64,000 nt of DNA from Sphingopyxis sp. H115. GTDB lineage: Bacteria; Pseudomonadota; Alphaproteobacteria; Sphingomonadales; Sphingomonadaceae. The DNA lies in contig NZ_LNSA01000012.1 in NCBI RefSeq assembly GCF_001468465.1, forward strand, positions 1 through 64,000, read 5' to 3'. A program made the translations under genes and the position numbers. Below the pieces are notes generated by a model. The model made no database searches, was not told where the DNA came from, and worked only from the letters and a program-made list of their open reading frames with translations. Positions 8,903-64,000 of this stretch are shown piece after piece. The stretch's first letter is position 1. Every line of letters starts with the position of its first letter.

Positions 8903-8917
8903 GGCAGGTCTTCTCCC

Positions 8918-16465: not shown

Positions 16466-16469
16466 CGGA

Positions 16470-16691: not shown

Positions 16692-16702
16692 GGTAGTCTC
16701 CC

Positions 16703-16915: not shown

Positions 16916-16921
16916 TGTTCT

Positions 16922-17920: not shown

Positions 17921-18016
17921 CCCGACTCTCCCCGGCCTCCCCTTGATCGGATTCGGGCCTGCAGCCCTTAAAACGAGCGCCGGGTAAATTGTCTACCAGT
18001 TTTTCGTTATGTAAAC

Positions 18017-18328: not shown

Positions 18329-18331
18329 GAC

Positions 18332-18817
18332 TTAAGCCTCGGGGGCGATGACGAGCCGCGCCGCGATCTTGGCCGCCACCTTCTCGACCGCTGCAACTAC
18401 CGGCCCGGAAAGCTCGGTGGCATAGTCCAGCGTCTGCGCTTCGATCAGATAGACTTGCACATCAGAAGGGAAGTCATCGCCAAAGATCTTGCGTCCCACA
18501 AACAGGGCGTTGTCCCAACGGAACGCGTGAAGACCCACGCCATGGACCGGTTCTGCCGCCAGCACATCGCCGGGAACCTCGTAGATAGCCCCCGGCTTGC
18601 CTTCGGGCTCCCTTGCATCGATCACGATAAGCTGCTGCGCCCCGCGCGCACGGTACATCACTGCCATCCCATCAGTGCCGGCATCCAGCAGCGCTACATC
18701 AGACGGCAAATCTTCAGCAGCAAGCCGGGCGATGACGGCCGGACCAGCCCCGTCATCACCGCGATTGATATTGCCGCAGCCAATGATCGCAGTGGCAGGT
18801 GCGTCTAAATTCGCCAC
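18332..18817 (-). CDS. Hydrogenase maturation endopeptidase (HupW/HyaD family)
   Basis: A nickel-dependent protease of about 161 residues that removes the C-terminal extension of the HupL precursor after metal insertion. The family motif IIGCGNINRGDDGAGPAV is present (Asp in GDD binds nickel). So are LLDAGTDGMAVMY with the second metal-ligand Asp, IVIDAREPEGKPG, and GVGLHAFRW with the third ligand His. Starts at GTG 18817, 18826 or 18832 are all possible. Each overlaps the end of the upstream Cys protein gene, and I prefer 18817 from the family's usual N-terminus. Confidence 0.92.
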   Translation of the reverse strand: MANLDAPATAIIGCGNINRGDDGAGPAVIARLAAEDLPSDVALLDAGTDGMAVMYRARGAQQLIVIDAREPEGKPGAIYEVPGDVLAAEPVHGVGLHAFRWDNALFVGRKIFGDDFPSDVQVYLIEAQTLDYATELSGPVVAAVEKVAAKIAARLVIAPEA

Positions 18818-19122
18818 AGGCGGCACGACCACTCGGGTTCAACCGGCAGCATAAGTTCAGGCAGATCACAGAAACGGCGCTTGATAAGGTAATACATGCA
18901 GGTTTCGCAGGGCTGTTCCAGTTCATCAGCCGTGATGGTGTGATCTGTAAACCCGGCAATCACAAGTTTGGAAGCAAGGTCCTTGCCTTCCGATTGCAGG
19001 CGGGACACGATCGCGTTGACCTGCGCGGAGTCTTCGGCTCTGGGGAAGACTTCGGTTTCAAGGCCGCCAGCCAGAAGACCCGCGATCTCCCGCCGTAGGG
19101 TTTCGTCTGCATCAGTGGCCAT
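18805..19122 (-). CDS. Small five-Cys protein of the hydrogenase operon, paralogue 2
   Basis: A 105-residue protein. Its C-terminal 35 residues contain C-x2-C-MYYL-x2-RR-x-C-DLPEL, then EPEW-x-CRLWRI at the very end, with four Cys in that block. The upstream neighbour ends almost identically, so the two arose by tandem duplication. The N-terminal halves are weakly similar (GLETEV-F/P shared). Clustered Cys and Trp suggest a metal or Fe-S site, or a docking peptide. The gene lies between hupL and the endopeptidase gene and overlaps the latter. Function unknown; a chaperone for HupS or HupL is a reasonable guess. Confidence 0.8.
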   Translation of the reverse strand: MATDADETLRREIAGLLAGGLETEVFPRAEDSAQVNAIVSRLQSEGKDLASKLVIAGFTDHTITADELEQPCETCMYYLIKRRFCDLPELMLPVEPEWSCRLWRI

Positions 19123-19133
19123 GCGCAACTCCT

Positions 19134-19514
19134 TCAAATGCGCCAGAGGCGACACCACCATTCGGGCTCGGCGGGCAAGCTTAGCTCCGGCAGGTCACAC
19201 CAGCGCCTGTGGACCAGATAATACATGCATTCCTGACAGCGCATCTCGTCTGCCCCGTACGGGCGAAGCAACCAGCCGGAAATGTCGAGCTTGGCCCTTA
19301 GATCATCCGGGTCGAGCGCCCTTAACTCGTCAAGAATGCCTGAAAACTCGCGGTCGGTTTCGGGAAATGGCTCAACCTGCGTTTCCAGCCCTTCGTTGAG
19401 ATAATCCTCGATCATGCGCAGAAGTGTCGCATGATCGGCCTCTGAAGGCACCACGCCATACCGGGACAGGAGCCATTCGCGCTGGCGCTGCAATTCGGTG
19501 TTGTCGCCAGTCAT
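19134..19514 (-). CDS. Small Cys-rich protein of the hydrogenase operon, paralogue 1
   Basis: A 126-residue protein, first gene after hupL. The conserved C-terminal block reads C-x2-C-MYYL-x2-RR-x-C-DLPEL-x-LP-x-EPEW-x-CRLWRI, the same as the next gene's. The N-terminal half is helical and acidic (MIEDYLNEGLETQVEPF). I start at ATG 19514 (MTGDNTELQ), with the longer form at 19532 as an alternative. Spacing to the paralogue is 11 bases. The retention of two copies with near-identical C-termini and different N-termini suggests each handles a different partner, for example one per subunit. That is inference. Confidence 0.8.
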   Translation of the reverse strand: MTGDNTELQRQREWLLSRYGVVPSEADHATLLRMIEDYLNEGLETQVEPFPETDREFSGILDELRALDPDDLRAKLDISGWLLRPYGADEMRCQECMYYLVHRRWCDLPELSLPAEPEWWCRLWRI

Positions 19515-19557
19515 TCCGGCGCATTCTCCCAACGGGTTGTTATTCTATTCGCAGCCT

Positions 19558-19592
19558 CGGGTGGGAGACACCTCACAGCGTCCTCCCACCCG
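19558..19592 (-). promoter_or_regulatory. Stem-loop directly downstream of hupL
   Basis: GGGTGGGAG (19559-19567) pairs perfectly with CTCCCACCC (19583-19591), extended by one C-G pair, around a 15-base loop. It begins 12 bases after the hupL stop on the transcript and has no U-tract behind it. It therefore looks like an mRNA-stabilising or partial-termination hairpin that would favour HupSL over the downstream accessory proteins. Confidence 0.55.
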
Positions 19593-19603
19593 GCGGCCCG
19601 ATA

Positions 19604-21199
19604 TCAAGCTGTGCGGAAGCGCGCCAGTTCCTCGCCCGTTTTCGCATCGTGTGCGTGGACCGTACAAACCAGGCAGCTGTCGTAGGAACGGCAGACATGT
19701 CCGACTTCAACCGGATCGGCAGTATTTGTAATCGGGGTGCCGATGAGTGCCTCCTCGATCGGTCCCAACTCGCCATTGCTCGCACGCGGGCCGACATTCC
19801 ATGTGGTCGGAGCGATGATCTGGTAATTGTGGATCTTGCCATCGCGCACGTCGATCCAGTGGCACAAGGCGCCACGCGCAGCCTCGGTCGCGCCCCATCC
19901 CTGGCCATCGCGCTCAGTAGGCTTGATGTACCATTCATCGTTGAGACGGAACTCGCGCAGGATGCGTTCGGCTTCGCGGTATAGCTTGCACAGCTCATGC
20001 AGGCGGGCGAAGTGGCGCAGGTAGGTCGAAGCGCCGCCAAGCTTGCGATACATGTCGAGCACCAGTCCATCACTGTGTTGCCAGGCCTCGCCATGATCGC
20101 CACCAGCGATCAGCTGCCGCGCGAGCGGGCCGGCCTCAAGACGACCATGTTCGGCGTGGCGAACGGCAGTCGACCAGCTGTATTTGCCATCAGTATCGAT
20201 GTCGTTTTTCGCGATTGGCATCGTCGTCCGGTCGAATGGGTGGATATCGTCCCCTTCGTTGTACCACGCGCGCTGCATGTCCTCGCGGACATTGCCCTGA
20301 TCCATCAGCTTGAACGCGCCGCTGGCACCGTCGAACGTCCCCGATTTCATGATCACGGCGCTGTTGCGGCCTTCAATCGTGGGGTTGTTGTAACGGTCTT
20401 CATGCGGGAGATAGCCCCACGAGATGAACTTGCCGTGGCCAGTGCCATATTTCTCCAGTCCGATGTCGAGCGACATGCGGATAAACATGCCGAGATCGGA
20501 ATTCGCGTGTTCCGGCCGCTCATCAAGCCACGCCATCAGTTGATCGTACGTGGTGATTTCCTCATAGCGCTCCATCGAGCAACCAAGGAACAACGGTTCG
20601 ATCCAGTTGCGGCGGAAGTGCTCCAGGATCGACCAGGCGCGGGTCACGTCGGTCAGGGTCGGGGCGCACATCACGCCGCCAGGAACCATGAAGGAAGAAT
20701 GCGGCCACTGCCCGCCAAGCAGGGCATAGATTTCTACCGGGCGGCCCGAAATGGTCACACCCGCTTCATAGGAGGTCCCTGTGAAGGGCGCATAGCGCTT
20801 CACCGCTTCTTCGTAGAACTTGGACTTCGCATAGTTCTGGTTGGTGTAGTCGATCATGAACAGACCATAGTGATGTCGCGGGATTGACTGGAGTGTTTCG
20901 ACGATTTGCCCGAGATTGCGGGCAAGGATCGCGTTACGCGGAACGGTGGTACCCCAGGCGGAATCGAGTGCCCAGGCAGCACAGGACAGGTGCGAGGCAC
21001 CGCAGATGCCGCAAGCACGAGGCGTAACGACAAGCCCGGCCTGTGGATCCTTGTTCTTGAGGATGACTTCGAAGCCGCGGAACATTTCCGCTTGCGTCCA
21101 TGCATTGGTGACGATCCCGTTCTCGATGTCGACGCGGACATCAAGGTCGCCCTCCACCCGGCCAACGGGCGAAATGTCGAGGGTTTGTGTAGCTGCCAT
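19604..21199 (-). CDS. hupL: [NiFe] hydrogenase large subunit, group 2a
   Basis: A 531-residue catalytic subunit that splits H2 at the NiFe(CN)2CO centre. The N-terminal ligand motif is RACGICGASH (about residues 60-69) and the C-terminal one is SYDSCLVCTVH (about 507-517). The 14 residues after that His (AHDAKTGEELARFRTA region) are the extension removed by the endopeptidase. Close resemblance to cyanobacterial HupL and mycobacterial HucL places it in group 2a. The residue before the third Cys is Ser, where many hydrogenases have Pro. The ATG at 21199 follows CGGGAG; the longer upstream frame lacks similarity. It has no signal sequence, as expected for a cytoplasm-facing enzyme. Confidence 0.97.
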   Translation of the reverse strand: MAATQTLDISPVGRVEGDLDVRVDIENGIVTNAWTQAEMFRGFEVILKNKDPQAGLVVTPRACGICGASHLSCAAWALDSAWGTTVPRNAILARNLGQIVETLQSIPRHHYGLFMIDYTNQNYAKSKFYEEAVKRYAPFTGTSYEAGVTISGRPVEIYALLGGQWPHSSFMVPGGVMCAPTLTDVTRAWSILEHFRRNWIEPLFLGCSMERYEEITTYDQLMAWLDERPEHANSDLGMFIRMSLDIGLEKYGTGHGKFISWGYLPHEDRYNNPTIEGRNSAVIMKSGTFDGASGAFKLMDQGNVREDMQRAWYNEGDDIHPFDRTTMPIAKNDIDTDGKYSWSTAVRHAEHGRLEAGPLARQLIAGGDHGEAWQHSDGLVLDMYRKLGGASTYLRHFARLHELCKLYREAERILREFRLNDEWYIKPTERDGQGWGATEAARGALCHWIDVRDGKIHNYQIIAPTTWNVGPRASNGELGPIEEALIGTPITNTADPVEVGHVCRSYDSCLVCTVHAHDAKTGEELARFRTA

Positions 21200-21225
21200 T
21201 GTAATTCTCCCGAAATTCTGTGTGC

Positions 21226-21245
21226 GGCGCGCTTCGCTGCGCGCC
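21226..21245 (-). promoter_or_regulatory. Stem-loop in the hupS-hupL spacer
   Basis: GGCGCGC (21226-21232) pairs perfectly with GCGCGCC (21239-21245) around the loop TTCGCT, inside the 61-base spacer between hupS and hupL. A hairpin in the same spacer is described for cyanobacterial hupSL, where it affects transcript stability or translation. Confidence 0.5.
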
Positions 21246-21260
21246 ATGAACCCTCATGAA

Positions 21261-22223
21261 TCAGACGACGAAGATATCCTCTTCGGCCCACGCCGGAGCC
21301 GCACCCTTGGCGGCAGCTGTGAGCTTGACGTAGCCGGTACGATCAACCCCTAGCGGCAGATCCTTCGGCACGCCCATCACAGTCTGGGTCTTGAAGACAG
21401 TTCCTGGGGCGAGATCGAAGAAGGGGAATTCCGGTTCCGTACAGCCAAGGCAGGGCATGCCAGCACGGGTCTTGGACGAAACGCGGTTCCACAGAATGCG
21501 GTTGCAGGGGCTGTGAGTCATCGGGCCGCGGCACCCCAGATCGTAATAGAGGCAGCCCTTGCGCTGACCGAAGGCCGTGGTCGAGACCTTGTAGGCGAAG
21601 TGCATGTTGCGGGTGCAGCCCGTCTGCGTGAAGCTGGAGAAGAAGGTCTTTGGCCGATGGAATTCGTCCAGCGTCAGGTCGCCCGCGCGGCCCGTGGCAA
21701 CGGCGACAAGGATCTGCGTTACCCAGTCAGGGTGAGCGGGGCAGCCGGGAATATTGATGACCGGAAGGCCAGCCTGAGACGTGAAGCCTTCGCCCAGCGC
21801 TCCACCCTTGGCCCGCTTGAGGAACTGCAAGCCTTCGCTTTCAGACGGGTTCGGCGCCGTTGCCGGGATGCCGCCCCAGGTGGCGCAATCGCCGATTGCC
21901 ACAACAAATTGCGCCTTGGCAGAAAGATCTGCCACCCAGTCTTTCATCGGGCGGCCACAGAAGCGATTCCATTCGCCGGTACCGTTGGGCGCATTGATGA
22001 CGCTGCCTTCGAACACGAAAATGTCGAGCGGGATTTCGCCGGAAAGGCACTTTTCCATCATGACTTTGACATTCTCACCCAGCTCGAGGCCAAGCGAGGG
22101 ATGCCAAAGGACATTGATGCCAAAATCCGTCACCAGATCGCATGCGCTGGGCTCCTCGGCATTAAGGAAGGACATGGTGTTGCCAGAGCACGCACCGCCT
22201 TGAAGCCACAACAGATTCGCCAT
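21261..22223 (-). CDS. hupS: [NiFe] hydrogenase small subunit, group 2a
   Basis: A 320-residue electron-transfer subunit with three Fe-S clusters. It begins MANLLWLQGGACSGNTMSF without a Tat signal, the hallmark of group 2 enzymes. The proximal-site motif has a single Cys (C12) where group 1 enzymes have CxxC. In mycobacterial Huc the clusters are of the [3Fe-4S] type. Further ligands lie in GDCATWGGIPA, NIPGCPAHPDW, CTRNMHFAY, GCLYYDLGCRGP, CNRILWNR and GMPCLGCTEPEFPFFD. The protein is very similar throughout to HupS of heterocystous cyanobacteria. It is the first gene after a sigma-54-type promoter. Confidence 0.97.
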   Translation of the reverse strand: MANLLWLQGGACSGNTMSFLNAEEPSACDLVTDFGINVLWHPSLGLELGENVKVMMEKCLSGEIPLDIFVFEGSVINAPNGTGEWNRFCGRPMKDWVADLSAKAQFVVAIGDCATWGGIPATAPNPSESEGLQFLKRAKGGALGEGFTSQAGLPVINIPGCPAHPDWVTQILVAVATGRAGDLTLDEFHRPKTFFSSFTQTGCTRNMHFAYKVSTTAFGQRKGCLYYDLGCRGPMTHSPCNRILWNRVSSKTRAGMPCLGCTEPEFPFFDLAPGTVFKTQTVMGVPKDLPLGVDRTGYVKLTAAAKGAAPAWAEEDIFVV

Positions 22224-29893: not shown

Positions 29894-32863
29894 ATGACGA
29901 AGCGCAAGCATCAACTCCTGACCGAGAGCGAGCGCAATCAGATCCTTGCCATCCCGACCGATCGCGACCACTTGGCTCGGCTCTACACCTTCGAGCCTGC
30001 GGACATCGAGATCATCGGCGCGCGACGGGAACGACGGAACCAGTTGGGCGTCGCGCTGCAACTCGCGCTCTTGCGCCACCCGGGCATCACACTGGCGCAG
30101 TTGATACAGAACAGGGGAGCGATGCCCCATGATCTCGCCGCCTTCGTCGCAGAACAGCTTGGCCTGCGCGTCACGGATCTGGCTGACTATGCGGCGAGGG
30201 ACCAGACCATGACGGACCATGCTCGCGAGCTAGCCGCGCGCTTGGGACTGCGAGGGCCGACGCGTGCCGATATTCCGTTCATGATCGAAGCGGCCACGAA
30301 AACGGCATGGGCGACCGACAAGGGGATGACGATAGCGACCGGTGTTGTCACCGCCCTTCGTGAGGCCCGGATTCTGCTGCCGTCCATCTCCACCATCGAG
30401 CGTGCCAGCAGCGCGGGGCGCGCGCGTGCCCGCAAGCAAGCCGCCTATGCCCTGATCGACGATCTCAGCGCTGAACAGGTCCACGCCCTCGACCAGCTCT
30501 TTGACGACGCCGGGGGCATGAGCCAGCTCGCTTCGCTCAAGACCATTCCCATCGCGGCAAGGCCCGATCATATCCGCCAGATTCTCGACCGCCTGCGGCA
30601 AGTGCGGAAGATCGGCATCTCCCCGGACGTGGCTGGCCGCATCCACGCGGACCGCTTCCGGCAATATGTCCGGGAAGGCCGTGCATCGCCTGCCTATATG
30701 ATCGAGCGATACGTTCCCTCCCGGCGGCGCGCCACGCTGGTTGCCTTCCTGCTCGATCTTGAAGAGCAGCTGACCGACAGCGCTCTGGAGATGGCGGACA
30801 AGCTGATCGGCAGCATCTTCACCCGCGCGAAGAATGCCCAGGCGCGTAGCTATGCCGCCACATCGAAGAACGTGGCGCGGCTGATGCTGATCTTTCGCAG
30901 AACGATCGATGCGCTGACCGATGCGGTCGATACTGGCGAAGATCCAATTGAGGTCCTGGACGCATCGGTCGGGTGGAACACCCTGATGAAGGCGAGGCCG
31001 GAAGTGGCGAGCATCGCGGAAACCGCCAACCTCGATCCGCTGACGGTCGCGGCCGACCGCTATGCGACGTTACGCAAGTTCGCCCCCGACCTGCTTGAGA
31101 CGCTCCAGTTCAGGGCCGGAAAGGGCAGTGCGAAAACGATCGCTGCCATCGAAATGCTGCGCGACCTCAACAGGTCGGGCAAACGCGATCTTCCTACCGA
31201 CGCTCCGATGCCCTTCCGTAAAGAATGGCGAAAAATCGTCGTTGGCGATAACGGCAAGATCAACCGGCGGCTCTGGGAAATCGCAACGATCGCGCATCTG
31301 CGCAACAAGTTGCGTTCGGGGGATGTCTGGGTGGAGCGATCGGCGGGATACCGCCAGTTCGACAGCTACCTGCTCAGCGAACCGAAGGCGAAGCCAATCG
31401 TGTCGGCTCTTGGTCTGCCACCCACAGCCAGCGAATGGCTCGAACAACGGGGCCGCGAACTGGACTGGCGACTGAAGAAATTTGCCCAGCGCCTGAAGCG
31501 CGACGCTCTGGAGGGTGTGCGGTTCCGCGACGGCCGCCTCCAGATATCCCCGGTTCGCACGATCGCGATGCCCGATGCCGAAGCGCTGGCTGACCGGCTC
31601 GATGCGATGATGCCCCGCATCCGCATCACCGAGCTGCTGCATGAAGTGGCGCAGGAAACCGGCTTTCTTGCTGCATTCACGAACCTGCGCACCGGCGAAG
31701 CGTGCCCCAACGAAAACGCGCTGCTCGCCACCATCCTTGCGGATGCCACCAATCTCGGCCTGTCGCGCATGGCTGCCGCGAGCCAGGGCGTGACGCGCGA
31801 CCAGCTCCTGTGGACCCATGACGCCTATATCCGCGACGACAGCTACTGCGCGGCGCTGGCCGTGCTCATCAACGCGCATCACCGCCTGCCATTCTCGCGC
31901 GTATGGGGCGACGGCACAACGTCCAGTTCCGATGGCCAGTTCTTCAGGGGCGCGAAGCGCGGTGCATCGGGCGGCGATATCAACGCCCGCTATGGCGTCG
32001 ATCATGGCTTCAGCTTCTACACTCATGTTTCCGACCAGCGTGCGCCTTACCACGTCAACGTGATCTCTGCCGCGACGCATGAGGCACCCTATGTTCTCGA
32101 CGGCCTCACCAGCCACGGCACCGATCTGAAAATCGTCGAGCATTACACCGACACTGGCGGGGCGACCGATCATGTCTTCGCCCTGTGCGCGATGCTGGGA
32201 TTTCGCTTCTGCCCGCGCCTGCGCGACTTTCCAGACCGGCGCCTCGCGCCGATCGCGCCGGTTAAGGCCTATCCGGCCATCGCCCCGCTAATGGGCAAGC
32301 GTATCCGCACCGACATCATCGCTGAACAATGGGATGACGTGCTGCGCCTCGTCGGCTCGATCAAGGCCGGCCATGTCGCGCCATCGGTCATGCTGCGAAA
32401 GCTCGCCGCGTACGAACGGCAGAACCAACTCGACGTCGCGCTACAGGAAATCGGCAAGATCGAGCGAACCCTGTTCATGCTGGACTGGCTGGAAAATCCC
32501 GATCTGCGCCAGCGATGCCATGCTGGTCTCAACAACAGCGAACAACGCCATGCCCTGACGCAGGCAATCTACACCTTCCGCCAAGGCCGGATCATCGACC
32601 GCAGCCATGAGGCGCAACAATATCGGGCATCCGGCCTCAATCTAGTCATCGCCGCGATCGTCTACTGGAACACGATCTACATGGATGCTGCCGCCCAGCA
32701 TCTACGATCAACCTCGGTCGCGGTGCCTGATTATCTGCTCGCCCATACGTCCCCCGTGGGTTGGGAGCATATTGCCTTCTCCGGCGATTTCCTCTGGGAT
32801 CGCGCAGCCGCTTCCGCTGGCCGCAAGGCCCTCAATCTCCCGCCGGATAGCCGCGTCGCATAA
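29894..32863 (+). CDS. tnpA: Tn3-family transposase
   Basis: A 989-residue replicative transposase (DDE type). The N-terminus MTKRKHQLLTESERNQILAIPTD is the usual Tn3 TnpA start; an upstream extension of 45 codons crosses the res spacer and is rejected. The DDE region contains VWGDGTTSSSDGQFF (first Asp), THVSDQRAPYHVNVI (second Asp) and the downstream LGFRFCPRLRDF block. The C-terminal NLVIAAIVYWNT...LAHTSPVGWEHIAFSGDFLW is strongly conserved. The gene is intact and probably active. Confidence 0.97.
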   Translation: MTKRKHQLLTESERNQILAIPTDRDHLARLYTFEPADIEIIGARRERRNQLGVALQLALLRHPGITLAQLIQNRGAMPHDLAAFVAEQLGLRVTDLADYAARDQTMTDHARELAARLGLRGPTRADIPFMIEAATKTAWATDKGMTIATGVVTALREARILLPSISTIERASSAGRARARKQAAYALIDDLSAEQVHALDQLFDDAGGMSQLASLKTIPIAARPDHIRQILDRLRQVRKIGISPDVAGRIHADRFRQYVREGRASPAYMIERYVPSRRRATLVAFLLDLEEQLTDSALEMADKLIGSIFTRAKNAQARSYAATSKNVARLMLIFRRTIDALTDAVDTGEDPIEVLDASVGWNTLMKARPEVASIAETANLDPLTVAADRYATLRKFAPDLLETLQFRAGKGSAKTIAAIEMLRDLNRSGKRDLPTDAPMPFRKEWRKIVVGDNGKINRRLWEIATIAHLRNKLRSGDVWVERSAGYRQFDSYLLSEPKAKPIVSALGLPPTASEWLEQRGRELDWRLKKFAQRLKRDALEGVRFRDGRLQISPVRTIAMPDAEALADRLDAMMPRIRITELLHEVAQETGFLAAFTNLRTGEACPNENALLATILADATNLGLSRMAAASQGVTRDQLLWTHDAYIRDDSYCAALAVLINAHHRLPFSRVWGDGTTSSSDGQFFRGAKRGASGGDINARYGVDHGFSFYTHVSDQRAPYHVNVISAATHEAPYVLDGLTSHGTDLKIVEHYTDTGGATDHVFALCAMLGFRFCPRLRDFPDRRLAPIAPVKAYPAIAPLMGKRIRTDIIAEQWDDVLRLVGSIKAGHVAPSVMLRKLAAYERQNQLDVALQEIGKIERTLFMLDWLENPDLRQRCHAGLNNSEQRHALTQAIYTFRQGRIIDRSHEAQQYRASGLNLVIAAIVYWNTIYMDAAAQHLRSTSVAVPDYLLAHTSPVGWEHIAFSGDFLWDRAAASAGRKALNLPPDSRVA

Positions 32864-32883
32864 GCGTTCGCTGATTGTTCGCC

Positions 32884-32921
32884 CTTAGCGTTGTTTAGCG
32901 TACCATCCACGCTATGCCCTC
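32884..32921 (-). repeat. Right 38-bp terminal inverted repeat of the Tn3 element
   Basis: The reverse complement starts GAGGGCATAGCGTGG and ends CAACGCTAAG, with four mismatches to the left repeat. It begins 21 bases after the tnpA stop, as usual for the family. Confidence 0.92.
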
Positions 32922-33070
32922 AACTGAAGCTGATCAAGATCGGGGCACGTGTCGTCCGCCATGCCCGCGCCATCACCTTCCAGCTGGCCGAGGTGGCCGT
33001 CACCGGTCCGATGGTCCGCGCCATCCTCGCCGCCATCCGCCGATTGCGAGCGCCTCCGCTATGCGCATGA
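32922..33070 (+). pseudogene. 3' remnant of an IS1380-family transposase
   Basis: Read in frame from 32924, the sequence gives KLIKIGARVVRHARAITF, continues QLAEVAVTGPMVRAIL and ends RLRAPPLCA before a TGA at 33068. That is the C-terminus of alphaproteobacterial IS1380-type transposases. The upstream part of the gene is missing: the Tn3 right end replaces it. Confidence 0.75.
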
Positions 33071-55900: not shown

Positions 55901-56116
55901 ATGGCGCAGCACCGGAAAGCGGAGCAAAGACGCAAACGCCGTCAGGATGGTTTGCGCCCCCTCGAAATCTGGCTGCCAGCAGCCATGATTGCGATGATTG
56001 ACGAGCTCAAAAGGGATAATCTGTCGTCCCGAGAGGCGATCATCACGGCAATCGTGGCGAAAACGCTGAGCGTCAGGCCACCTGAAACATCTGAAGGACA
56101 ACCGATGATGCTCTGA
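55901..56116 (+). CDS. Ribbon-helix-helix-like small protein
   Basis: A 71-residue protein with a very basic N-terminus (MAQHRKAEQRRKRRQDG) and a ribbon-helix-helix pattern (LRPLEIWLPAAMIAMIDELKRDNLSSREAIITAIVAKTL). Such proteins act as plasmid repressors or relaxosome factors. Starts further upstream (55841 or TTG 55814) are possible. A strong hairpin follows the stop. Confidence 0.6.
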   Translation: MAQHRKAEQRRKRRQDGLRPLEIWLPAAMIAMIDELKRDNLSSREAIITAIVAKTLSVRPPETSEGQPMML

Positions 56117-56121
56117 AATTG

Positions 56122-56153
56122 AAAGGGGGCCCCGCGCCAACGGGACCCCCTTT
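56122..56153 (+). terminator. Rho-independent terminator after the RHH gene
   Basis: AAAGGGGGCCCC pairs with GGGACCCCCTTT with one mismatch around a short loop, flanked by A and T runs so that it may work in both directions. It ends the plus-strand group of small genes. Confidence 0.75.
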
Positions 56154-56312
56154 AACGCATCCTGTTGCCAGAGCGCCAAGTTCACCTCGCTTTCTAGCAA
56201 CAGACCGAATGGCAAACAAGCGCTTCTGCGCGCGATGAAACGCGCCCGAACGCTGCCAAGAATCGCCGCACCAGCTGGTGCATATGAAAGGGAGGTCAGC
56301 GACGCAGACATG

Positions 56313-56382
56313 AAAAACCCGGGCAGCGCCCGGGCCTTTCGAAGGAAGCTGTAATTTGCCGCGCCAAAGCGTGGCGAGAGAC
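56313..56382 (-). ncRNA. Candidate antisense RNA upstream of repC
   Basis: The minus strand has a textbook terminator at 56313-56334 (CCCGGGC-AGC-GCCCGGG hairpin followed by TTTTT), but no minus-strand protein gene lies upstream of it. A weak promoter (TTGCAA at 56411-56416, TAGCTT at 56389-56394, 16-base spacer) would give an RNA of about 70 bases. RepABC-type plasmids use such a counter-transcribed RNA before repC to limit copy number. Promoter assignment is tentative. The rest of 56154-56486 contains a 5-3-5 palindrome (CGCAACGTTTGCG at 56425) and no gene. Confidence 0.4.
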
Positions 56383-56486
56383 ACCGGCAAGCTACCTGCT
56401 CCCTCACAACTTGCAAGCATTTTTCGCAACGTTTGCGGGCAATGTTTTTTGTCTGTGCCGCACCTCAGGACTGAGGAAGCGAAGGG

Positions 56487-57965
56487 ATGACTATTGTCCA
56501 GAATCAGGCAGCCTGGGAGGTGGATAGCCGCCGCCGGGGAGGGCCAGCAGCGATCGGCGCCTGTCTGCCAAAACTGGGGATGCTCGAGACCGAACAGCTG
56601 ACCAAGATCGCCTTCATGGAAGACCCGGCAGATCGGGCAAGACATGCTGCGCGCGTCAGCAAGATGATGCGAGGGTTCGGACATACCGGGACCGAAAGTG
56701 CAGGCAGACAGCGGCGGCGCAAACTGCTCGATATCATCGAGACCTTCGTGAGAATGCCGCCCGTGACTATCGATGTTCCGAGGATCGTCTGGCGCGATCT
56801 TTACGATGCCGCCGCGAGCATCGCCGCCATGAATATCGACTGGGACAGCCGCTGCGGCCCCCTCATCGCCGCCTCGAACGACCATCTCAAATGCCGGATA
56901 GGATGGACCGCCGCGCGCAAGAACATCAGGCGCCTTGCCGAATACGGCCTGATCATCCCCTATTGCCTCGCGGGCAACGGCAAACGATTTCTTGGATCAC
57001 GAGACAGCCTGGATCGCTCTGACGCCTCAGGATGGTCGCTAGCCCCGCTGCTCCTCCTCGAAGATTACCTCACACAGCTCGCCGCCACCGAAAAGGCCCT
57101 GGCCGAGCAGAACCTGATCCTGCCCAAGGAGATTCGAAAGGCAACAAGCAGCGCCTACCGGCTGCTGCGGCCGTTCGAGCAGGGCCACCCCTGGGCTGAC
57201 AAGGCCAGAAAGAAGCTCGATGCGATCGCTGCGGCGCGGCGCATATACCAGAGGCGGAAAGGATCCATGGACGCGATCGGCGTGCTCGGCCGCCTCGCCG
57301 AGGTCGCAACGCGGCTGCTTGATCGGTTGTCAGAGCGCATATCGCTCGGCGAGATTGCGTCGCTGACACCTTCCGGGGACACTAGGGTGCGCCGGGATGG
57401 CCACCATCAATACAGTCCTGAAGAAGCTCTTGAATCTGTATCCGGCTTGGCGGAGGGCGCTTGCCGACGGGAACCTGATGACGTTCGAACCACGCCTGAT
57501 GCCGACAGGGTGAAGCAAGAAACAGCCGATGCTTGTCAGAACGCGCTGGTCTCTGCCGACACGAATGATGTCTACGGCATCCAGCGATCGGGGTTCGTTT
57601 GGGCCGAAGCCTCTGCCCTCTTCCCTTTCATCGACGGTATGGTCGAAATCGCGAGACGGCCCGGCCTGACCGAGCTTCACGCGGTCGCTCGCGTCTGCCA
57701 GATAGGTCAGGCTACAGCCGCTCGGGCAAGCGCCATGCTAGGGACAGAGATCGCACTCCTCTGCGCGCTAATCACCGGGCATCACCTGGCCAACGGACAA
57801 ATCCGCAAGACCCCCGATGCATACATGCAAGCACTGGTGCGGCGCGCCCGCAGCGGTGAGCTCAATCTCGGCCACACGCTGCTCGGCCGCAGAAAGGCAG
57901 TATTCGGCCAGGGGGATACAAGGGCTTCGAATATGCGTATCTCTGTTCGATCATCGATGCACTAG
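56487..57965 (+). CDS. repC: RepC-like plasmid replication initiator
   Basis: A 492-residue protein with the two-domain layout of RepC. The N-terminal winged-helix region includes the hallmark GWSLAPLLLLEDYL. A variable linker (about 310-360) follows, then the RepC C-terminal domain (HAVARVCQIGQATAARASAMLGTEIALLCALITGHHLANGQIRKTPDAYMQALVRRARSGELNLGHTLLG region). RepC normally initiates replication at an origin within its own gene. No repA or repB precedes it here, so it is a solo repC, unlike classical repABC. The window's other partition-like protein lacks an active P-loop. The start is preceded by GAAGCGAAGGG. Confidence 0.85.
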   Translation: MTIVQNQAAWEVDSRRRGGPAAIGACLPKLGMLETEQLTKIAFMEDPADRARHAARVSKMMRGFGHTGTESAGRQRRRKLLDIIETFVRMPPVTIDVPRIVWRDLYDAAASIAAMNIDWDSRCGPLIAASNDHLKCRIGWTAARKNIRRLAEYGLIIPYCLAGNGKRFLGSRDSLDRSDASGWSLAPLLLLEDYLTQLAATEKALAEQNLILPKEIRKATSSAYRLLRPFEQGHPWADKARKKLDAIAAARRIYQRRKGSMDAIGVLGRLAEVATRLLDRLSERISLGEIASLTPSGDTRVRRDGHHQYSPEEALESVSGLAEGACRREPDDVRTTPDADRVKQETADACQNALVSADTNDVYGIQRSGFVWAEASALFPFIDGMVEIARRPGLTELHAVARVCQIGQATAARASAMLGTEIALLCALITGHHLANGQIRKTPDAYMQALVRRARSGELNLGHTLLGRRKAVFGQGDTRASNMRISVRSSMH

Positions 57966-57974
57966 GTCCGACTC

Positions 57975-58250
57975 ATGAAGCAGGAAGCCCTTATCGCTTG
58001 GACATCGCTCTACATCGGCGTGGGAATGATGGCGCTGATCTGCGCAGTGCTCTCAGTTGTCGTCACGGCTGACGACTGGCGGAGTGGCAGGTGGCGACCC
58101 ACGCACCAAACGGGGCTCCAGAAAGCTCTGGTCATCCCGAAGCTCTGGCTGCGCTGGCAGCTCAACTACCTCAAGGGCGCGCCAGTCATCCTGGCAATCA
58201 GCGTGTACTATGCTCGGCACGTCGGTTTCTCAGTGTTCTGGGACGTCTGA
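57975..58250 (+). CDS. Small membrane protein downstream of repC
   Basis: A 91-residue protein with two membrane helices (LIAWTSLYIGVGMMALICAVLSVVV and APVILAISVYYARHVGFSVFW). A basic cytoplasmic loop (RSGRWRPTHQTGLQKALVIPKLWLRW) joins them. It is 9 bases after repC and converges with the transglycosylase gene, overlapping it by 21 bases. Family not recognised. Confidence 0.6.
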   Translation: MKQEALIAWTSLYIGVGMMALICAVLSVVVTADDWRSGRWRPTHQTGLQKALVIPKLWLRWQLNYLKGAPVILAISVYYARHVGFSVFWDV

Positions 58251-59111
58251 TCGTCCATCGAATGAGGCAAGCATTACCCTGCGAAACGGATTGGGCGCGG
58301 GAAGTGCTGCCGAAGTCAGCGACACGCCGCCGGTCGAATTCGGAATGCCAATTGAGCCCATGATCGTACGCACATAGTTGCGGGTCTCACGAAACGGCGG
58401 GATACCGCCAAATTGGTCCACGCGTCCCGGGCCTGCATTATAGGCAGCCAGTGCAAGCTCCCATGTCCCGAAGCGATCCAACTGCTCGCGCAGATACCGC
58501 GCGCCGCCGACAAGGTTTTGCCGCACATCCCAAGGGTCGGTGACACGCAGATATTGGGCCGTACCGGGCATAAGCTGAGCCATGCCCATCGCACCGGCAC
58601 TGCTTCGGGCGAAGGGACGATATCTGCTTTCCTGCGCCAGCAAGGCGTCAAATAGAACAACGGGCACGCCGGCATCGCAAGCGACGTCGACGATCAGGTT
58701 GAAATAGGCGGTCCGGCGAGCCTGAGCATCGCCGCTGATACCATATCGCGGGAAGAAGCTGCGGGACTGGCAGAGTGGGTCATCCTGCGAAGGGCGGAAT
58801 GGTGAAGAAGCAGGGCTCATGAATGATGCACCTGCCCGCATCCACGAAGGAACAGCGGGACGCGCGGCATAGGGATTGATCGTGAAGCTGTGAGGGACCA
58901 ACTCAAAGTCGCCGTGCAACTCTGGTGAAAACGCATCCACTGGAGCCGGAGGCACTTCCACTGATTGCTCGAGATCGACCGCCCCGCGCAACTGTGGGCG
59001 GAGCACAGCAAAATCCGGTTTTGCCTCTGGCACAAACACGTCGAGCATGGCTTCGCGCGCCGATGATGGCGTCGGCGTCAAAGCGACCAGCAAAAATAGA
59101 AGATTTTTCAT
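58230..59111 (-). CDS. Lytic transglycosylase of the transfer region (SLT domain)
   Basis: A 293-residue exported enzyme that opens peptidoglycan for the transfer apparatus. ATG 59111 follows AAAGGTG and gives a signal peptide (MKNLLFLLVALTPTPSSA). The C-terminal SLT domain has the catalytic Glu in LLAQESRYRPFARSSAGAMGMAQLMPGTAQYL, then GGARYLREQLDRFGTWELALAAYNAGPGRV. The middle part is unlike other domains. It is the P19/VirB1-like enzyme of this plasmid, though it lies outside the main tra operon. Confidence 0.92.
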   Translation of the reverse strand: MKNLLFLLVALTPTPSSAREAMLDVFVPEAKPDFAVLRPQLRGAVDLEQSVEVPPAPVDAFSPELHGDFELVPHSFTINPYAARPAVPSWMRAGASFMSPASSPFRPSQDDPLCQSRSFFPRYGISGDAQARRTAYFNLIVDVACDAGVPVVLFDALLAQESRYRPFARSSAGAMGMAQLMPGTAQYLRVTDPWDVRQNLVGGARYLREQLDRFGTWELALAAYNAGPGRVDQFGGIPPFRETRNYVRTIMGSIGIPNSTGGVSLTSAALPAPNPFRRVMLASFDGRSDVPEH

Positions 59112-59298
59112 GACCACACCTTTCGGCGTGGTTCGGATATCGCCCCACTTTTCTAAATGAACAGGCGGGGCATGGCAATCGCCCAGAATCTGGCATCGCA
59201 CAGACGAAAGCGGCGTTGGCCATCGCGAGCCGTGCCGGAGAAGGTCGGGTCGATCCAGAGGGGAAAGATGGTGAGGCTGAGCTGAGAGGAGCGAGTTT

Positions 59299-60135
59299 AT
59301 GCTAGTTGCGCTCAAACCCACCCAGGAGACCATCGACATCGTTGCTGCGCTGAAGGGCCGTTGGCACGGTTCCTACGCGATGTGCATCTGCCCTGCGCAT
59401 GCAGACCGAACGCCGTCACTTTCAGTCCGGCAGGGCGAGCGGGGTATTCTGGTCCACTGTTTTGCGGGATGCCGCAGCGAGGATGTCCTGCGCGAAATCG
59501 GTCGGACCAAACCGATCCTGAATTCCTCTGCCCCAAGCTATCAGCCAGAACGAACTGCGCCAAACGTCAGAAGGATATGGGATCAGGCCACGGAGATCCG
59601 CGGAACGCTCGGTGAAGTCTACCTTCGGTCGCGGCGGCTGCCAATCGACCTCCCCGACTTACGCTTCCATCCGCGGTGCCCATTCGGCCGCAAGCCTAAG
59701 ACCACCTTCCGGCCCGCGATACTGGTCGGTGTCAGAACCGGGCACCGGATGACGGCCATCCAGCGGATCAGGCTGACCAACGACGGAACATGGCATGATG
59801 GCAAATTCATGCTCGGAAAGCCTGAACGGGGCGCGTGGGCACCGCAGTTCGAGGGCGACGTGCTCGCCATTGCTGAGGGCATGGAGGATGCGGCGAGCTA
59901 TACTCAGATCAAAGGAGTCCCTTGCTGGGCAGCACTCGGGAATAAGCGTCTCGCGCTAATCAACGTTCCGGACCAAGTTGGCACCCTTTACATCGCCGCG
60001 GACAACGATGGTCCAGGCCGATACGCTGCAATGGCGGCAGTTGGATCACATAACATACCAGAAAGGCAGCTCTTGCGTGATCCGCCGCCAAGGCCTTTCC
60101 ACGATTGGGCAGAAGCTCAGAGCCATATCCGTTAA
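59299..60135 (+). CDS. CHC2 zinc-finger / Toprim primase-like protein
   Basis: A 278-residue protein. It has an N-terminal CHC2-type zinc finger (CPAHADRTPSLSV...VHCFAGC), then a helical region and a C-terminal Toprim domain (VLAIAEGMEDAASY with the catalytic Glu, LYIAADNDGPGR with the Asp pair). This layout belongs to DNA primases and plasmid Toprim proteins. It may prime the transferred strand or plasmid replication. GAGAGGAG precedes the ATG. Confidence 0.9.
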   Translation: MLVALKPTQETIDIVAALKGRWHGSYAMCICPAHADRTPSLSVRQGERGILVHCFAGCRSEDVLREIGRTKPILNSSAPSYQPERTAPNVRRIWDQATEIRGTLGEVYLRSRRLPIDLPDLRFHPRCPFGRKPKTTFRPAILVGVRTGHRMTAIQRIRLTNDGTWHDGKFMLGKPERGAWAPQFEGDVLAIAEGMEDAASYTQIKGVPCWAALGNKRLALINVPDQVGTLYIAADNDGPGRYAAMAAVGSHNIPERQLLRDPPPRPFHDWAEAQSHIR

Positions 60136-60447
60136 ATGAACATCAGGCTGAGTGTCGGCGATGAAGATCGGGCGCGAGGCACCGACAAACGCTGTAAGCT
60201 GTTGAACGAGCCATTCGGAAACATACCGCAAACTTGCCGGTCGAATTTCAGCATCGATATGCAGTTCCGACTTCCGCCGTCGAAGTTCATAGGCCACACC
60301 ATCATAGAAAACGGATCGGTCCATTGAGGAACCCGTTTCAAGCAGTGCAGCGAAACTACGCAGACCGATTACTTGCATCTTTCCCACTACAAAGCTTGCG
60401 GGATTATCAATCGCGTCAATTCGATTTATGGCGAACCATTTGCCCAT
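60046..60447 (-). CDS. Uncharacterised protein overlapping the primase-like gene
   Basis: A 133-residue soluble protein (FAINRIDAIDNPASFVVGKMQVIGLRSFAALLE, RRKSELHIDAEIRPASLRYVSEWLVQQLTAFV). Family unknown. Its 3' end overlaps the convergent primase-like gene by 90 bases, which lowers confidence. The amino-acid composition is nevertheless ordinary for a real protein. The ATG at 60447 is preferred over a TTG at 60477. Confidence 0.45.
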   Translation of the reverse strand: MGKWFAINRIDAIDNPASFVVGKMQVIGLRSFAALLETGSSMDRSVFYDGVAYELRRRKSELHIDAEIRPASLRYVSEWLVQQLTAFVGASRPIFIADTQPDVHLTDMALSFCPIVERPWRRITQELPFWYVM

Positions 60448-60556
60448 GAAATCTCGGATTTTCGGTGATGGGGCCAAAGGAAAACGCTATCACTTCAAGA
60501 CACAGCTTGGTTTTATCCTGTATGTCAATTATACTGCCGCTGACTTCGGTTAAAAT

Positions 60557-60855
60557 CCGTTGTCAACAGATCGCGCCGGTGCCCGAGAGGGTTTAATTCG
60601 GGAACACGGTGAGGAGCGGCTTTTGCTGATCCGAGTCCGAGGCTGTCCCTGCAACTGTAAGCGGCGAGCGCGATGCACATCGCTTCCACCTTCGGGCGGG
60701 AGCAGCCACTGGGCCGGACGCTAAGTCATGCGGGGCCTGGGAAGGCCGTGCATCAAGCTGTGACCCGCGAGCCAGGAGACCTGCCGGCGCTTGGTCGCTC
60801 TTGCTGCGGTCCAGGGGATGGCCATGGCACGGTAAACCTCCGTCTGAGCGACGAA
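60557..60855 (+). repeat. Direct repeat copy 1 containing a cobalamin riboswitch
   Basis: About 299 bases nearly identical to 61536-61833. Differences are single substitutions and a short indel near 60722-60735. Similarity begins at CCGTTGTCAACAG and ends at GAGCGACGAA; flanks are unrelated. Confidence 0.9.
60575..60789 (+). promoter_or_regulatory. Cobalamin riboswitch, copy 1
   Basis: Shows the conserved B12 riboswitch blocks in order: CCGGTGCCCGAGAGG, GGGAACACGGTGAGG, GGCTGTCCCTGCAACTGTAAGCGG, GCCACTGG, TGGGAAGGCC and GCGAGCCAGGAGACCTGCCGG. A later GGTCGCTC...GAGCGAC pairing (about 60792-60852) may be the expression platform. The gene downstream (61005) has no evident B12 role. Confidence 0.93.
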
Positions 60856-61004
60856 TCGATGTGACTGGGTCTTTCAGCGGCCCCGGCGCTGCGGGCGCGC
60901 GCCAGGAGAAAGCTGCTGACCACCTCACGTGGCGACTTGGTCTTGGTTCGTGGCGTCCGGACCGGAGACACCTGCAATGCAAATGTCATATAGTGCCTGA
61001 CGTT

Positions 61005-61481
61005 ATGGCAATCCGCCGCTTGGTCACCCTCAAGAAAGACAATGACCATTTGGTCGTAGAGGTAGACCTCGATGGGCCGATGCCGATTGGCCTTGTGGTC
61101 CATAAGGGCGAGCGCGACGCTACCATGCGGCTACTCATGGCGAAGAGTGGCAGCGCAATCGACAAACCCGGAAGAGTTTGCAGATTTCAACCCGATCAGT
61201 TGGGCTCTGCTGAAATGCTTGTCGATGAGCTTCGCGACAGGCTCCGCCGGATCGCTTCGAAACCCCTTAGTCTCAAGCAGATTGAGAAGCTGTTGTCGCT
61301 CACCCCCGCCGAACGCAACCGGTGGTCGAAAGATGGCCGACTGCAAATTTCCGGGACATCCAAAATACGCCGAGGGGACAACCTCATTTCGCTCGCGACC
61401 TATAATGTGGATGCGGTGGAACGGTTGCTTGAAAATCCTGCCATCGTTGAGGCTTGGCGTCGTTCCGATGCCAGTCGTTAA
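61005..61481 (+). CDS. Uncharacterised protein between two riboswitches
   Basis: A 158-residue basic protein (MAIRRLVTLKKDNDHLVVEVDLDGP, MPIGLVVHKGERDATMRLL, LVDELRDRLRRIASKPLSLKQIEKLLSLTPAERNRWSKDGRLQ, NVDAVERLLENPAIVEAWRR). The end of the middle part may be a helix-turn-helix. It is unlike any cobalamin gene I know. ATG 61005 is chosen; the frame is open further upstream but through riboswitch-flank sequence. It lies between the two direct repeats, so it could be lost or amplified by recombination. Confidence 0.6.
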   Translation: MAIRRLVTLKKDNDHLVVEVDLDGPMPIGLVVHKGERDATMRLLMAKSGSAIDKPGRVCRFQPDQLGSAEMLVDELRDRLRRIASKPLSLKQIEKLLSLTPAERNRWSKDGRLQISGTSKIRRGDNLISLATYNVDAVERLLENPAIVEAWRRSDASR

Positions 61482-61535
61482 GGGATTGGCTTTCGGGCGA
61501 CTTTCGACTAGTGGATCAACGTCAACGGTTTAAGA

Positions 61536-61833
61536 CCGTTGTCAACAGATCGCGCCGGTGCCCGAGAGGGCTTAATTCGGGAACACGGTGAGGAGCGGCC
61601 TTGGCTGATCCGAATCCGAGGCTGTCCCTGCAACTGTAAGCGGCGAGCGCGATGCACATCGCTTCCACCTTCGGGCGGAAGCAGCCACTGGGCCTTACGC
61701 TTGTCCAAGCGCGGCCTGGGAAGGCCGTGCATCAAGCTATGACCCGCGAGCCAGGAGACCTGCCGGCGTTTGGTCGCTCTTGCTGCGGTCCAGGGGATGG
61801 CCATGGCACGGTAACCTCCGTCTGAGCGACGAA
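61536..61833 (+). repeat. Direct repeat copy 2 containing a cobalamin riboswitch
   Basis: Second copy of the repeat at 60557-60855, 979 bases downstream in the same orientation. Confidence 0.9.
61554..61768 (+). promoter_or_regulatory. Cobalamin riboswitch, copy 2, controlling btuB
   Basis: All conserved B12-aptamer blocks are present as in copy 1. The leader continues to the TonB-receptor start at 61997 and contains GGTCGCTC/GAGCGAC and GC-rich hairpins near 61838-61862 that could close the ribosome-binding region when B12 is bound. Expected effect: less receptor when cobalamin is plentiful. Confidence 0.95.
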
Positions 61834-61996
61834 CCATTGCGGCTGGGGCCGCAGGGTTAGTCCTGCGCGGGTGAATTGTGCCCACTCGCGTTGGCCTGGC
61901 CGACCGTTCGTGCGCTCTCCCGACTCGCCTTGGGAGTTGATGGATCCGGTTGCCCCTTTTCGTCGCGCAGTTGCTCGGCACCAAGGGGGTATCCCG

Positions 61997-63940
61997 ATGA
62001 AGAAACCTGTTCTCGTATCCACGTTTGCGCTGGCGCTAGCCAGCTGCCCGGCCTTCGCGCAGTCGAACCCGGGACAGCCTACAACCAATGACAGCGGAGA
62101 AACCATTGTCGTGACGGCGTCACGGTCCGGTGAGGCCGTGGCCGTAAACAAGCTCGGTGCGTCGGTGACGGTACTGGACAGCGAAGCGTTGGAGCAGCGC
62201 CAGACCCGGATTGTTTCGGACATTCTGCGCGATGTGCCGGGCGTTGCCGTGAGCCGCACCGGCGCTGCTGGCGGCCTCACCCAGCTCCGGCTTCGCGGCT
62301 CCGAGGGCAACCACGTCCTCGTTCTGATTGACGGTATAGAAGCTTCGGACCCGTATTTTGGCGAGTTCGATTTCGCCACTCTCATTGCCGATCCCGAAGC
62401 CCGCGTTGAAGTCCTGCGAGGGCAGCAGTCCTCGCTTTACGGTTCGGACGCGATCGGCGGCGTTATCCAGTATCTGACATTGACCGGGAAGGAGGCTCCG
62501 GGGGTCAGCTTGCGCGCAGAGGGAGGCAGCTTCAACACCTTCACCGGAAGCGCGCGTGCTGGCGGAGTGTCTGGCGATCTCGATTATGCTGTGTCTGGCG
62601 CTTACTATCACACCGGCGGCTATCCCACGGCACGAAATGGCAGCAGGGATGTCGGCTCCGACATCGCAGGCCTTTCGGCCAAGCTCATCTGGTCGCCGTC
62701 CGAAACCTTCAAACTGACCGGCGTTGCCCGCTACAGCTTCACGGAAGCCGATACCAACAACAGCGAGAACAATCCGGCGAGCCCGCTATTCGGATTCACC
62801 GTCGACAGCCCCGGCGTGTTCTTCAGAAACAAGGCCTTCTATGGTCTTGTGAGAGCTGAACTGATCGGGCTCGACGGCCGCTGGACGAACGCAGTGACAG
62901 GGCAAGTCGCGTTGAGCGAGCGCAAGGGCTTCGACGCTGCGGGCTTCGATTACGGCAACAAGGGTAACCGCTACAAAGGCTCGTTCGAATCGAGCCTGCG
63001 GCTGGGCACCGACGCCATCCGGCATCGCCTGACCGCCGCAATCGACGTCGAGCGCGAAGAATTCCAGAACACCACACCGTCATCCTTCGCGTTTCAGGGA
63101 AAAAGATCGACCGACAATGTCGGGATTGTCGGGCAGTATGAACTGCTGATCAACGACGCATTCTCTTTTGGTGCATCGATCCGCCATGACGAAAATGATC
63201 GCTTTGATGACCCCACAACTTGGCGGGTTCAAGGCAGTTATTCGCTCCCGACTGGTACCCGTGTTCGCGGTGCCTATGGAACGGGGGTCAAGAATCCGGG
63301 CTATTTCGAGCTCTATGGATTTTCCGATGGCCGCTATATTGGCAACCCTAACCTGAGGCCCGAGAAGTCGGAAGGGTGGGAAGCCGGCATCGAGCAAAGC
63401 TTCAGCGATGGCAAGGCCACCATAAGCGCGACCTATTTCGATAGCCGCCTGAAGGACGAAATTTTCACGACCTTCCCCGCTCCGACCTTCATAGCGACGC
63501 CATCAAACCGTGCAACTTTGTCGAAACAGCATGGCATTGAGGTGGCCCTTGCCGCCCGTCCAATTCCCCAGATCAGGCTGGACGCCGCCTACACATGGCT
63601 TCATGCGCGAGAAAACGGCACAGTCGAGGTGCGTCGCCCCAAGCATATCGGCAGTTTCAACGCGACAGTGTTCAGCAAGGATGAGCGCTTTTCGGGTACG
63701 TTGACAGTGCGCTACAACGGGCGTCAGACCGATGTCGCGTTTACAAATCCAAGCTTCATTCCGGTGCGCGTGTCCCTGAGGGAATATGTACTGGTTAACC
63801 TGAATGCCGAATACAAGTTGCGCCCCAACATTTCGTTGTTTGCGCGCGTAGAAAACCTCATCAACGAGCAATACGAAGAGGTGTTCAGTTTCGCCACTCC
63901 GGGCCGCGCAGGCTATGGTGGCGTTCGCGTCCGCTTCTGA
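61997..63940 (+). CDS. btuB: BtuB-like TonB-dependent cobalamin receptor
   Basis: A 647-residue outer-membrane receptor. Signal peptide (LVSTFALALASCPAFA) is followed by the TonB box (ETIVVTASRSGE). The plug domain has ASVTVLDSEALEQRQ, ILRDVPGVAVSRTG and RVEVLRGQQSSLYGSDAIGGVI. A 22-strand barrel ends NLINEQYEEVFSFATPGRAGYGGVRVRF, with the terminal Phe needed for membrane insertion. The B12 riboswitch directly upstream supports cobalamin as substrate. ATG 61997 follows AAGGGGG. The next gene starts inside its stop codon. Confidence 0.94.
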   Translation: MKKPVLVSTFALALASCPAFAQSNPGQPTTNDSGETIVVTASRSGEAVAVNKLGASVTVLDSEALEQRQTRIVSDILRDVPGVAVSRTGAAGGLTQLRLRGSEGNHVLVLIDGIEASDPYFGEFDFATLIADPEARVEVLRGQQSSLYGSDAIGGVIQYLTLTGKEAPGVSLRAEGGSFNTFTGSARAGGVSGDLDYAVSGAYYHTGGYPTARNGSRDVGSDIAGLSAKLIWSPSETFKLTGVARYSFTEADTNNSENNPASPLFGFTVDSPGVFFRNKAFYGLVRAELIGLDGRWTNAVTGQVALSERKGFDAAGFDYGNKGNRYKGSFESSLRLGTDAIRHRLTAAIDVEREEFQNTTPSSFAFQGKRSTDNVGIVGQYELLINDAFSFGASIRHDENDRFDDPTTWRVQGSYSLPTGTRVRGAYGTGVKNPGYFELYGFSDGRYIGNPNLRPEKSEGWEAGIEQSFSDGKATISATYFDSRLKDEIFTTFPAPTFIATPSNRATLSKQHGIEVALAARPIPQIRLDAAYTWLHARENGTVEVRRPKHIGSFNATVFSKDERFSGTLTVRYNGRQTDVAFTNPSFIPVRVSLREYVLVNLNAEYKLRPNISLFARVENLINEQYEEVFSFATPGRAGYGGVRVRF

Positions 63941-64000
63941 TGTTCCGCAAGGCGCTCTGCCTCCTTTGGATGATCTCCGTGCTTCCGGCTCTGGCCGGTT
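63940..64000 (+). CDS. Start of a secreted protein, partial, co-operonic with btuB
   Basis: The ATG overlaps the btuB stop (TGATG). The visible 20 codons encode a signal peptide (MFRKALCLLWMISVLPALAG), and the window ends there. A periplasmic B12-binding protein (BtuF-like) is the usual neighbour, but the visible part cannot show that. Confidence 0.6.
   Translation, partial: MFRKALCLLWMISVLPALAG

Follow-up and report, generated by a model that had tools for sequence, protein, structure and literature searches.

Gene X, which lies between two near-identical cobalamin riboswitches in the window (the whole 64-kb stretch of DNA that was analysed), rather likely encodes a small protein that binds DNA, regulates the B12 regulon and is made when B12 is scarce. 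A transcription regulator is the likeliest reading because the protein has a predicted winged helix, because relatives of X stand divergent from cobU in nine genomes, and because B12 genes keep these relatives company. Judged from gene neighbourhoods, the link of X to B12 is well supported; we infer DNA binding, the targets, the activator or repressor sign and control by the upstream riboswitch (copy 1).

The riboswitch pair and gene X

An Rfam scan of the window returned two matches to RF00174, both full-length and on the + strand, as the sole structured RNAs above the gathering score (31.5 for RF00174): aptamer 1 at 60560–60802 (90.3 bits, E 4.9e-21) and aptamer 2 at 61539–61781 (94.1 bits, E 4e-22), each covering model positions 1–189 of 189. 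By score and length both are members of RF00174, and cobalamin binding is predicted for both. Self-comparison placed them in a direct repeat on the + strand, with copy 1 at 60547–60869 (riboswitch 1 plus the beginning of its expression platform) and copy 2 at 61526–61847 (riboswitch 2); the repeat runs for 289 nt at 94% identity with a spacing of 979, continues after one indel for 35 nt more at 86%, and shows no similarity outside these bounds, in agreement with the two whole-aptamer repeats in the same orientation, 979 bases apart, that the earlier note had described. Of the 243 aptamer positions, 15 differ between the copies; none of these changes disrupts an additional consensus pair, since identical non-standard pairs are marked in both RF00174 alignments. 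Among 23 riboswitches compared, copy 1 shared 93.8% identity with copy 2 and 79.5% with its next best match, so that on identity the two are a duplication or gene-conversion pair and not a chance resemblance. Loss or amplification of X by recombination between the repeats, also proposed in the earlier note, is possible in principle, but the four copies of the locus examined (window, L019, L020, L021) retain both repeats.

X occupies 60993–61481 on the + strand, in a reading frame open from 60630. The 158-residue ORF between the repeats, starting at ATG 61005 (61005–61481), is real as claimed, but the protein probably starts at GTG 60993, which would give 162 aa, because the relatives of X in G012 and G268 begin with V/L-P-D. 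No good ribosome site was seen upstream of GTG 60993, which counts against the regulator reading. A possible promoter, TTGGTT-17-TATACT, was picked by eye with its spacing checked at 60507–60535 (+ strand) before copy 1; its first hexamer matches at only 3 of 6 positions, so that it falls below the threshold of the promoter scan and is unlisted there. The one site that the scan did list, 60965–60994, was discarded as a promoter, since it overlaps the start codon of X and the count is at chance level (1 found against 0.7 expected). Over positions 60300–62100 of the + strand the scan found no terminator-like site, and a transcript from copy 1 may therefore read through X. Folding of the two leaders gave z values of −1.46 and −1.10. 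The copy-1 leader is like other B12 leaders up to ~60869 and unlike them thereafter, and their later hairpins are missing from it, a second point counted against a regulator. Comparison with L016 and L033 found no remnants of the TonB or hupN genes between copy 1 and X. Copy 1 may control X.

After copy 2 comes a gene for a btuB-like TonB-dependent receptor at 61998–63940 on the + strand (frame open from GTG 61871; start set by eye from a signal-peptide-like N-terminus), followed beyond the window by btuF, btuC, btuD, a DUF6925 gene, a third riboswitch at contig position 67674, cobW, cobN and more cob genes. If riboswitch 2 and btuB were the working unit, X might have been trapped by the duplication, with copy 1 a by-product exerting no control over it. 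The end of leader similarity at ~60869 would fit this, as would nine btuB loci of the same genus, from all of which X was absent by tblastn; blastn found a full single riboswitch before btuB in seven of them, a partial match in one and none in one. Against it, every consensus pair kept in copy 2 is also kept in copy 1.

Gene neighbourhoods of the relatives of X

Relatives of X form two groups, a nearer and a sister group, which are homologous at hhalign E 1.7e-21 and come out as separate branches (100/100 support) when 15 nearer and 14 sister rows are placed in one tree (G664, G348, G1152, G1239, G241, L010, L050, L051, L079, L080, L102–L104 and further copies of the window element are absent from it). 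We examined 28 distinct nearer-group loci: the window, G012, G268, G241, G664, two Azospirillum, Novosphingobium P6W, five Bradyrhizobium (L047, L051, L102, L103, L104), Komagataeibacter nataicola (L048), K. saccharivorans (L080), Novacetimonas (L079), Acetobacter (L050), nine cobU-type genomes, a MAG (L022) and Novispirillum (L023). Genes for B12 uptake, B12 synthesis or isozymes, or else riboswitches on the flanks, occurred at 22 of these 28 loci, the plasmid loci among them having been hand-picked from longer lists (two of three Azospirillum, three of four Komagataeibacter/Novacetimonas and five of 17 Bradyrhizobium records with a match). At 21 loci the stretch holds genes for B12 uptake, B12 synthesis or ribonucleotide reductase, or else metE or core metE; at the 22nd, L080, X and a partner gene are all that lies in 6 kb, yet a riboswitch stands on either side. 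The partners vary (btuBFCD, cobW-cobN, cobU-cobC-cbiB, metE or core metE, nrdAB, nrdDG), and the B12-associated relatives span Sphingomonadales, Azospirillum, Bradyrhizobium and acetic acid bacteria, lineages that are not all independent, several having a common partner (btuB or cobW). The description of X in the earlier note as a gene without B12 function thus does not hold.

The link is weaker at L022 and L023, which carry methylcitrate-cycle genes only. Four loci on Bradyrhizobium plasmids (L051, L102, L103, L104) have neither a B12 gene nor a riboswitch on the record, which counts against the regulator reading and slightly raises the probability that X was trapped; two of them are truncated frames and two reach only 51–52 bits against the nearer-group profile. 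Two points weigh against trapping here, namely that relatives of X accompany B12 genes in other settings and that the riboswitch–X order is found again in acetic acid bacteria, and we regard it as improbable. The earlier note had offered entrapment as one option and a new member of the B12 regulon as the other; the recurrence of X relatives beside B12 genes in several lineages speaks against the former and, together with the riboswitch before X in Komagataeibacter and Novacetimonas, supports the latter.

The search for relatives of X beside riboswitches in other genomes, which the earlier note had suggested, was positive: 12 of the 28 nearer-group loci have an RF00174 match no more than about 450 nt from X (window, G012, G268, G241, G664, both Azospirillum, P6W, L047, L048, L079, L080). 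In the sister-group control, RF00174 occurred at 0 of 11 loci of 10–14 kb (L012, L013, L024, L049, L052, L053, L055, L068–L071), nor was it found at three short sister loci (L043, L045, L046), and a B12 gene panel applied to the 11 loci and L105–L107 returned nothing except a generic ABC ATPase in two. On three plasmids of acetic acid bacteria, from Komagataeibacter and Novacetimonas (L048, L079, L080), a riboswitch stands directly upstream of X in the order riboswitch, X, one gene, riboswitch, which is an arrangement independent of the window locus. The distance from the upstream riboswitch to X is 190 nt in the window and 235 nt in L048; in G012 and G268, X is the third gene of a run riboswitch-TonB-hupN-X. 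No RF00174 match was present in the stretches of the nine cobU-type loci, each of whose genomes has two or three elsewhere; one of those in G270 is 8.8 kb away from X, at the opposite end of the same gene cluster. L022 has two RF00174 matches ~5.5 kb from X, L023 none in 12 kb, and L050, L051 and L102–L104 none on the whole record.

The gap between X and the riboswitch downstream of it is 57 nt in the window and 28, 28, 113, 113, 164 and 57 nt elsewhere. This position directly downstream of X, in most riboswitch-bearing loci and at gaps of 28–164 nt, would also fit a B12-linked protein that is not a transcription factor, its winged helix binding RNA, for example the adjacent riboswitch leaders, or making protein contacts in corrinoid or cobalt handling; the cobU-type loci, which carry X without a neighbouring riboswitch, speak against such a role.

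X is divergent from cobU in nine genomes, in L034 with a DUF1289 gene between them. Alignment of these nine genomes revealed a conserved motif, TTTGCCAGCNNNGSCAR, in the X-cobU intergenic region, and nine of its 12 genome-wide matches fall in X's own promoter, one per genome (backward control, 5). As an operator of a regulon the motif was rejected: it was not seen at other B12 promoters, which counts against the regulator reading.

Several further features of these neighbourhoods were recorded. The cobU-cobC-cbiB cluster is 95–99% identical at the protein level across four genera (L034, L072, L073, L074, from G270, G1217, G1141, G1191), which suggests that this B12 island was recently transferred between genera. 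A gene or gene fragment for a short-chain fatty acyl-CoA regulator repeatedly adjoins X (L010, L022, L023, L047, L051, L054, L104), a neighbour that may tie X to propionate use. This ScfRs regulator (PF09856) is found next to X in two Azospirillum, in Novispirillum and in the MAG, with only a fragment in Bradyrhizobium; at 477 aa, with HTH_3 and ScfRs domains, it is a neighbour of X and no relative. The plasmids of acetic acid bacteria are rich in RF00174, with seven matches above cut-off on NZ_CP094849.1 and five on NZ_CP023038.1. A possible promoter of the form TTGGCA-about 15-TCTAGR was noted by eye just before the cobW riboswitch (L014:7600-7673, L016:11330-11384), and in G012 the same element overlaps the final codons of X.

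Predicted fold and comparison with known systems

An AlphaFold2 model of X built from five sequences had a mean pLDDT of 89.8 and a pTM of 0.79. In this model residues 85–146 of 158 form a winged helix, after which the protein ends with one further helix; predicted alone, the domain reached a pLDDT of 83.7. Its best 19 structural rows are BmrR, BldC, TipAL, MtaN, CvkR, CadR, Xis, CarH, SoxR, GlnR and other MerR types, with TniQ as the single exception, and the C-terminus of X is accordingly predicted to be a MerR/BldC/Xis-like winged helix. All 54 of 54 residues could be aligned both with BldC (residues 85–146; Z 6.3, rmsd 2.4) and with the phage Xis 4j2n (residues 84–146; Z 5.5). The fold scores are middling (Z 5–6), and the domain also aligns with ribosome-assembly proteins at Z 5.0, which counts against the regulator reading. 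In Foldseek, where the best E values were 0.02–0.1, Arp2/3 chains came top for the whole model and BldC for the domain. X matched no Pfam or NCBIfam family above cut-off, HTH_17 (Pfam) appeared in four of 12 members, weakly and below cut-off, and a search of solved structures with the X sequence gave nothing credible. A match to YiiM_3-alpha (Pfam; E 0.0035, 17.6 bits against a cut-off of 22.7) in one of 12 members was set aside. No B12-binding Pfam domain was found in X, and the model holds no further domain.

These results also bear on a role in RNA binding or protein contacts. The N-terminal part of X has an alpha/beta fold that matched many unrelated structures at about Z 6, and this leaves room for such a role; the MerR, BldC or Xis DNA-binding type of the winged helix's best 19 rows, TniQ excepted, opposes it, and we consider it unlikely.

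Cobalamin regulon genes comprise B12 biosynthesis, B12 transport, cobalt transport and isozymes (PMC3766115). The window resembles such regulons in that both repeats are full RF00174 members and copy 2 precedes the btuB operon, and differs from them in X, since a DNA-binding-type protein of this kind is not among the four gene classes given in that source. In Listeria, the AspocR/PocR and Rli55/EutV systems let a B12 riboswitch act on a protein regulator via an antisense or sequestering RNA (PMC8079631). They share with X, as described there, the linkage of a B12 riboswitch to a protein regulator, but the link runs through antisense or sequestering RNA, whereas X is preceded by a sense-strand leader; no relationship between X and the PocR and EutV systems emerged from any search made. 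B12-sensing MerR proteins such as CarH are described as having a B12-binding domain. The predicted winged helix of X is similar to that of CarH (Z 5.3, rmsd 4.0, 64 residues aligned), but the model of X, a protein of 162 aa, shows no B12-binding domain, and MerR-family proteins have an N-terminal winged helix, a dimerisation helix and an effector domain, whereas the predicted winged helix of X is C-terminal and the protein ends after it. BldC and phage Xis are small winged-helix proteins resembling the predicted domain of X, to which X adds the N-terminal alpha/beta domain and its B12 setting. A literature search, with subscription journals largely outside its scope, found no account of X.

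For Proteobacteria, most descriptions of B12 control have riboswitches acting in cis, and cobalamin riboswitches normally shut off their operon upon B12 binding. For this reason X, where it is riboswitch-led, would be made at low B12, in the window from behind its own riboswitch (copy 1); the transcript may continue from X into riboswitch 2 and btuB. The winged helix would then bind DNA at promoters of genes for B12 uptake, B12 synthesis or B12-independent isozymes, and X would pass on the cis signal of an RNA as a protein signal that acts in trans. More tentatively, and with less confidence than in the role of X itself, X may found a new family of trans-acting regulators of B12 shortage, whose synthesis is riboswitch-gated in some lineages, which carry the B12 signal to riboswitch-less genes (cobU, core metE, prpC), replacing or overlaying riboswitch control, and which spread on B12 islands. 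If so, X would add a trans-acting layer able to tune B12 genes that lack a riboswitch, and a protein that carries no annotation beyond 'hypothetical' on plasmids of Azospirillum, Komagataeibacter, Bradyrhizobium and Novosphingobium would gain a function.

Distribution, selection and mobility

Profile searches with alignments A2–A4 matched 10 of 397 genomes of the family, seven of 396 of the order, two of 385 of the class and eight of 299 of the phylum, counts that include the genome itself each time and, for the phylum, seven matches of the sister type; tblastn found more relatives on plasmids. A match in G054 (L009, L017; E 0.0016, residues 12–104 only) was left out of both the members and the controls. 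Among the more distant pairs dN/dS was 0.16 (G012–G268), 0.41 (window–G268) and 0.30 (G438–L076), from which we conclude that, on codon comparison, X is maintained by selection as a protein; very close pairs gave 0.13 to 0.71 with few changes each, and the window–G012 pair was saturated. X is broken in some genomes, being split over two frames in G241 and carrying a stop inside the match in G664, G1152 and G1239; the broken or short copies in G241, G664, L050, L051 and L104 count against the regulator reading. Its rarity in the family and these several broken or short copies indicate that X is dispensable.

The 115-kb contig carries a TraC gene, a Tn3-type transposase and a RepC-like gene below Pfam cut-offs. 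The X locus recurs at 99.94–99.96% identity over 6.7–8.0 kb in Novosphingobium subterraneum DSM 12447, with two copies on a single contig at a distance of about 225 kb, and in Blastomonas natatoria DSM 3183; the X-bearing stretch therefore moves between genera. Such mobility, with the locus at 99.9% identity across genera, would also suit an excisionase-like or plasmid-maintenance protein of a mobile element that travels with B12 islands by happenstance, as would the fold match to phage Xis 4j2n, weak matches to PHROGs excisionase families in two of 12 members (best E 0.0031) and the abundance of sister-group genes on rhizobial plasmids. The nearer group is, however, also found on large contigs of the cobU-type genomes, and its annotated stretches name no integrase except an 'integrase catalytic subunit' 3 kb off in L103, so we judge this origin very improbable. 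No relatives of X were found in phage records by tblastn or in viral contigs by scan.

The sister-group proteins are ~200–240 aa long, with a conserved stretch that ends in TFHVFDP in most members; their genes are frequent on rhizobial plasmids, with Ku, DNA ligase or transfer genes nearby in some (L012, L013, L024, L049, L052, L053, L055, L068–L071, L105–L107). In the window itself, positions 56006–64000, the B12 end, are near-identical in L019, L020 and L021, and in L019 and L020 the end of a Tn3-type transposon (window 31906–32923) directly abuts window position 56006. Window positions 7048–22223 hold hydrogenase maturation genes, HypD being assigned by Pfam and the others by eye from the ORF list.
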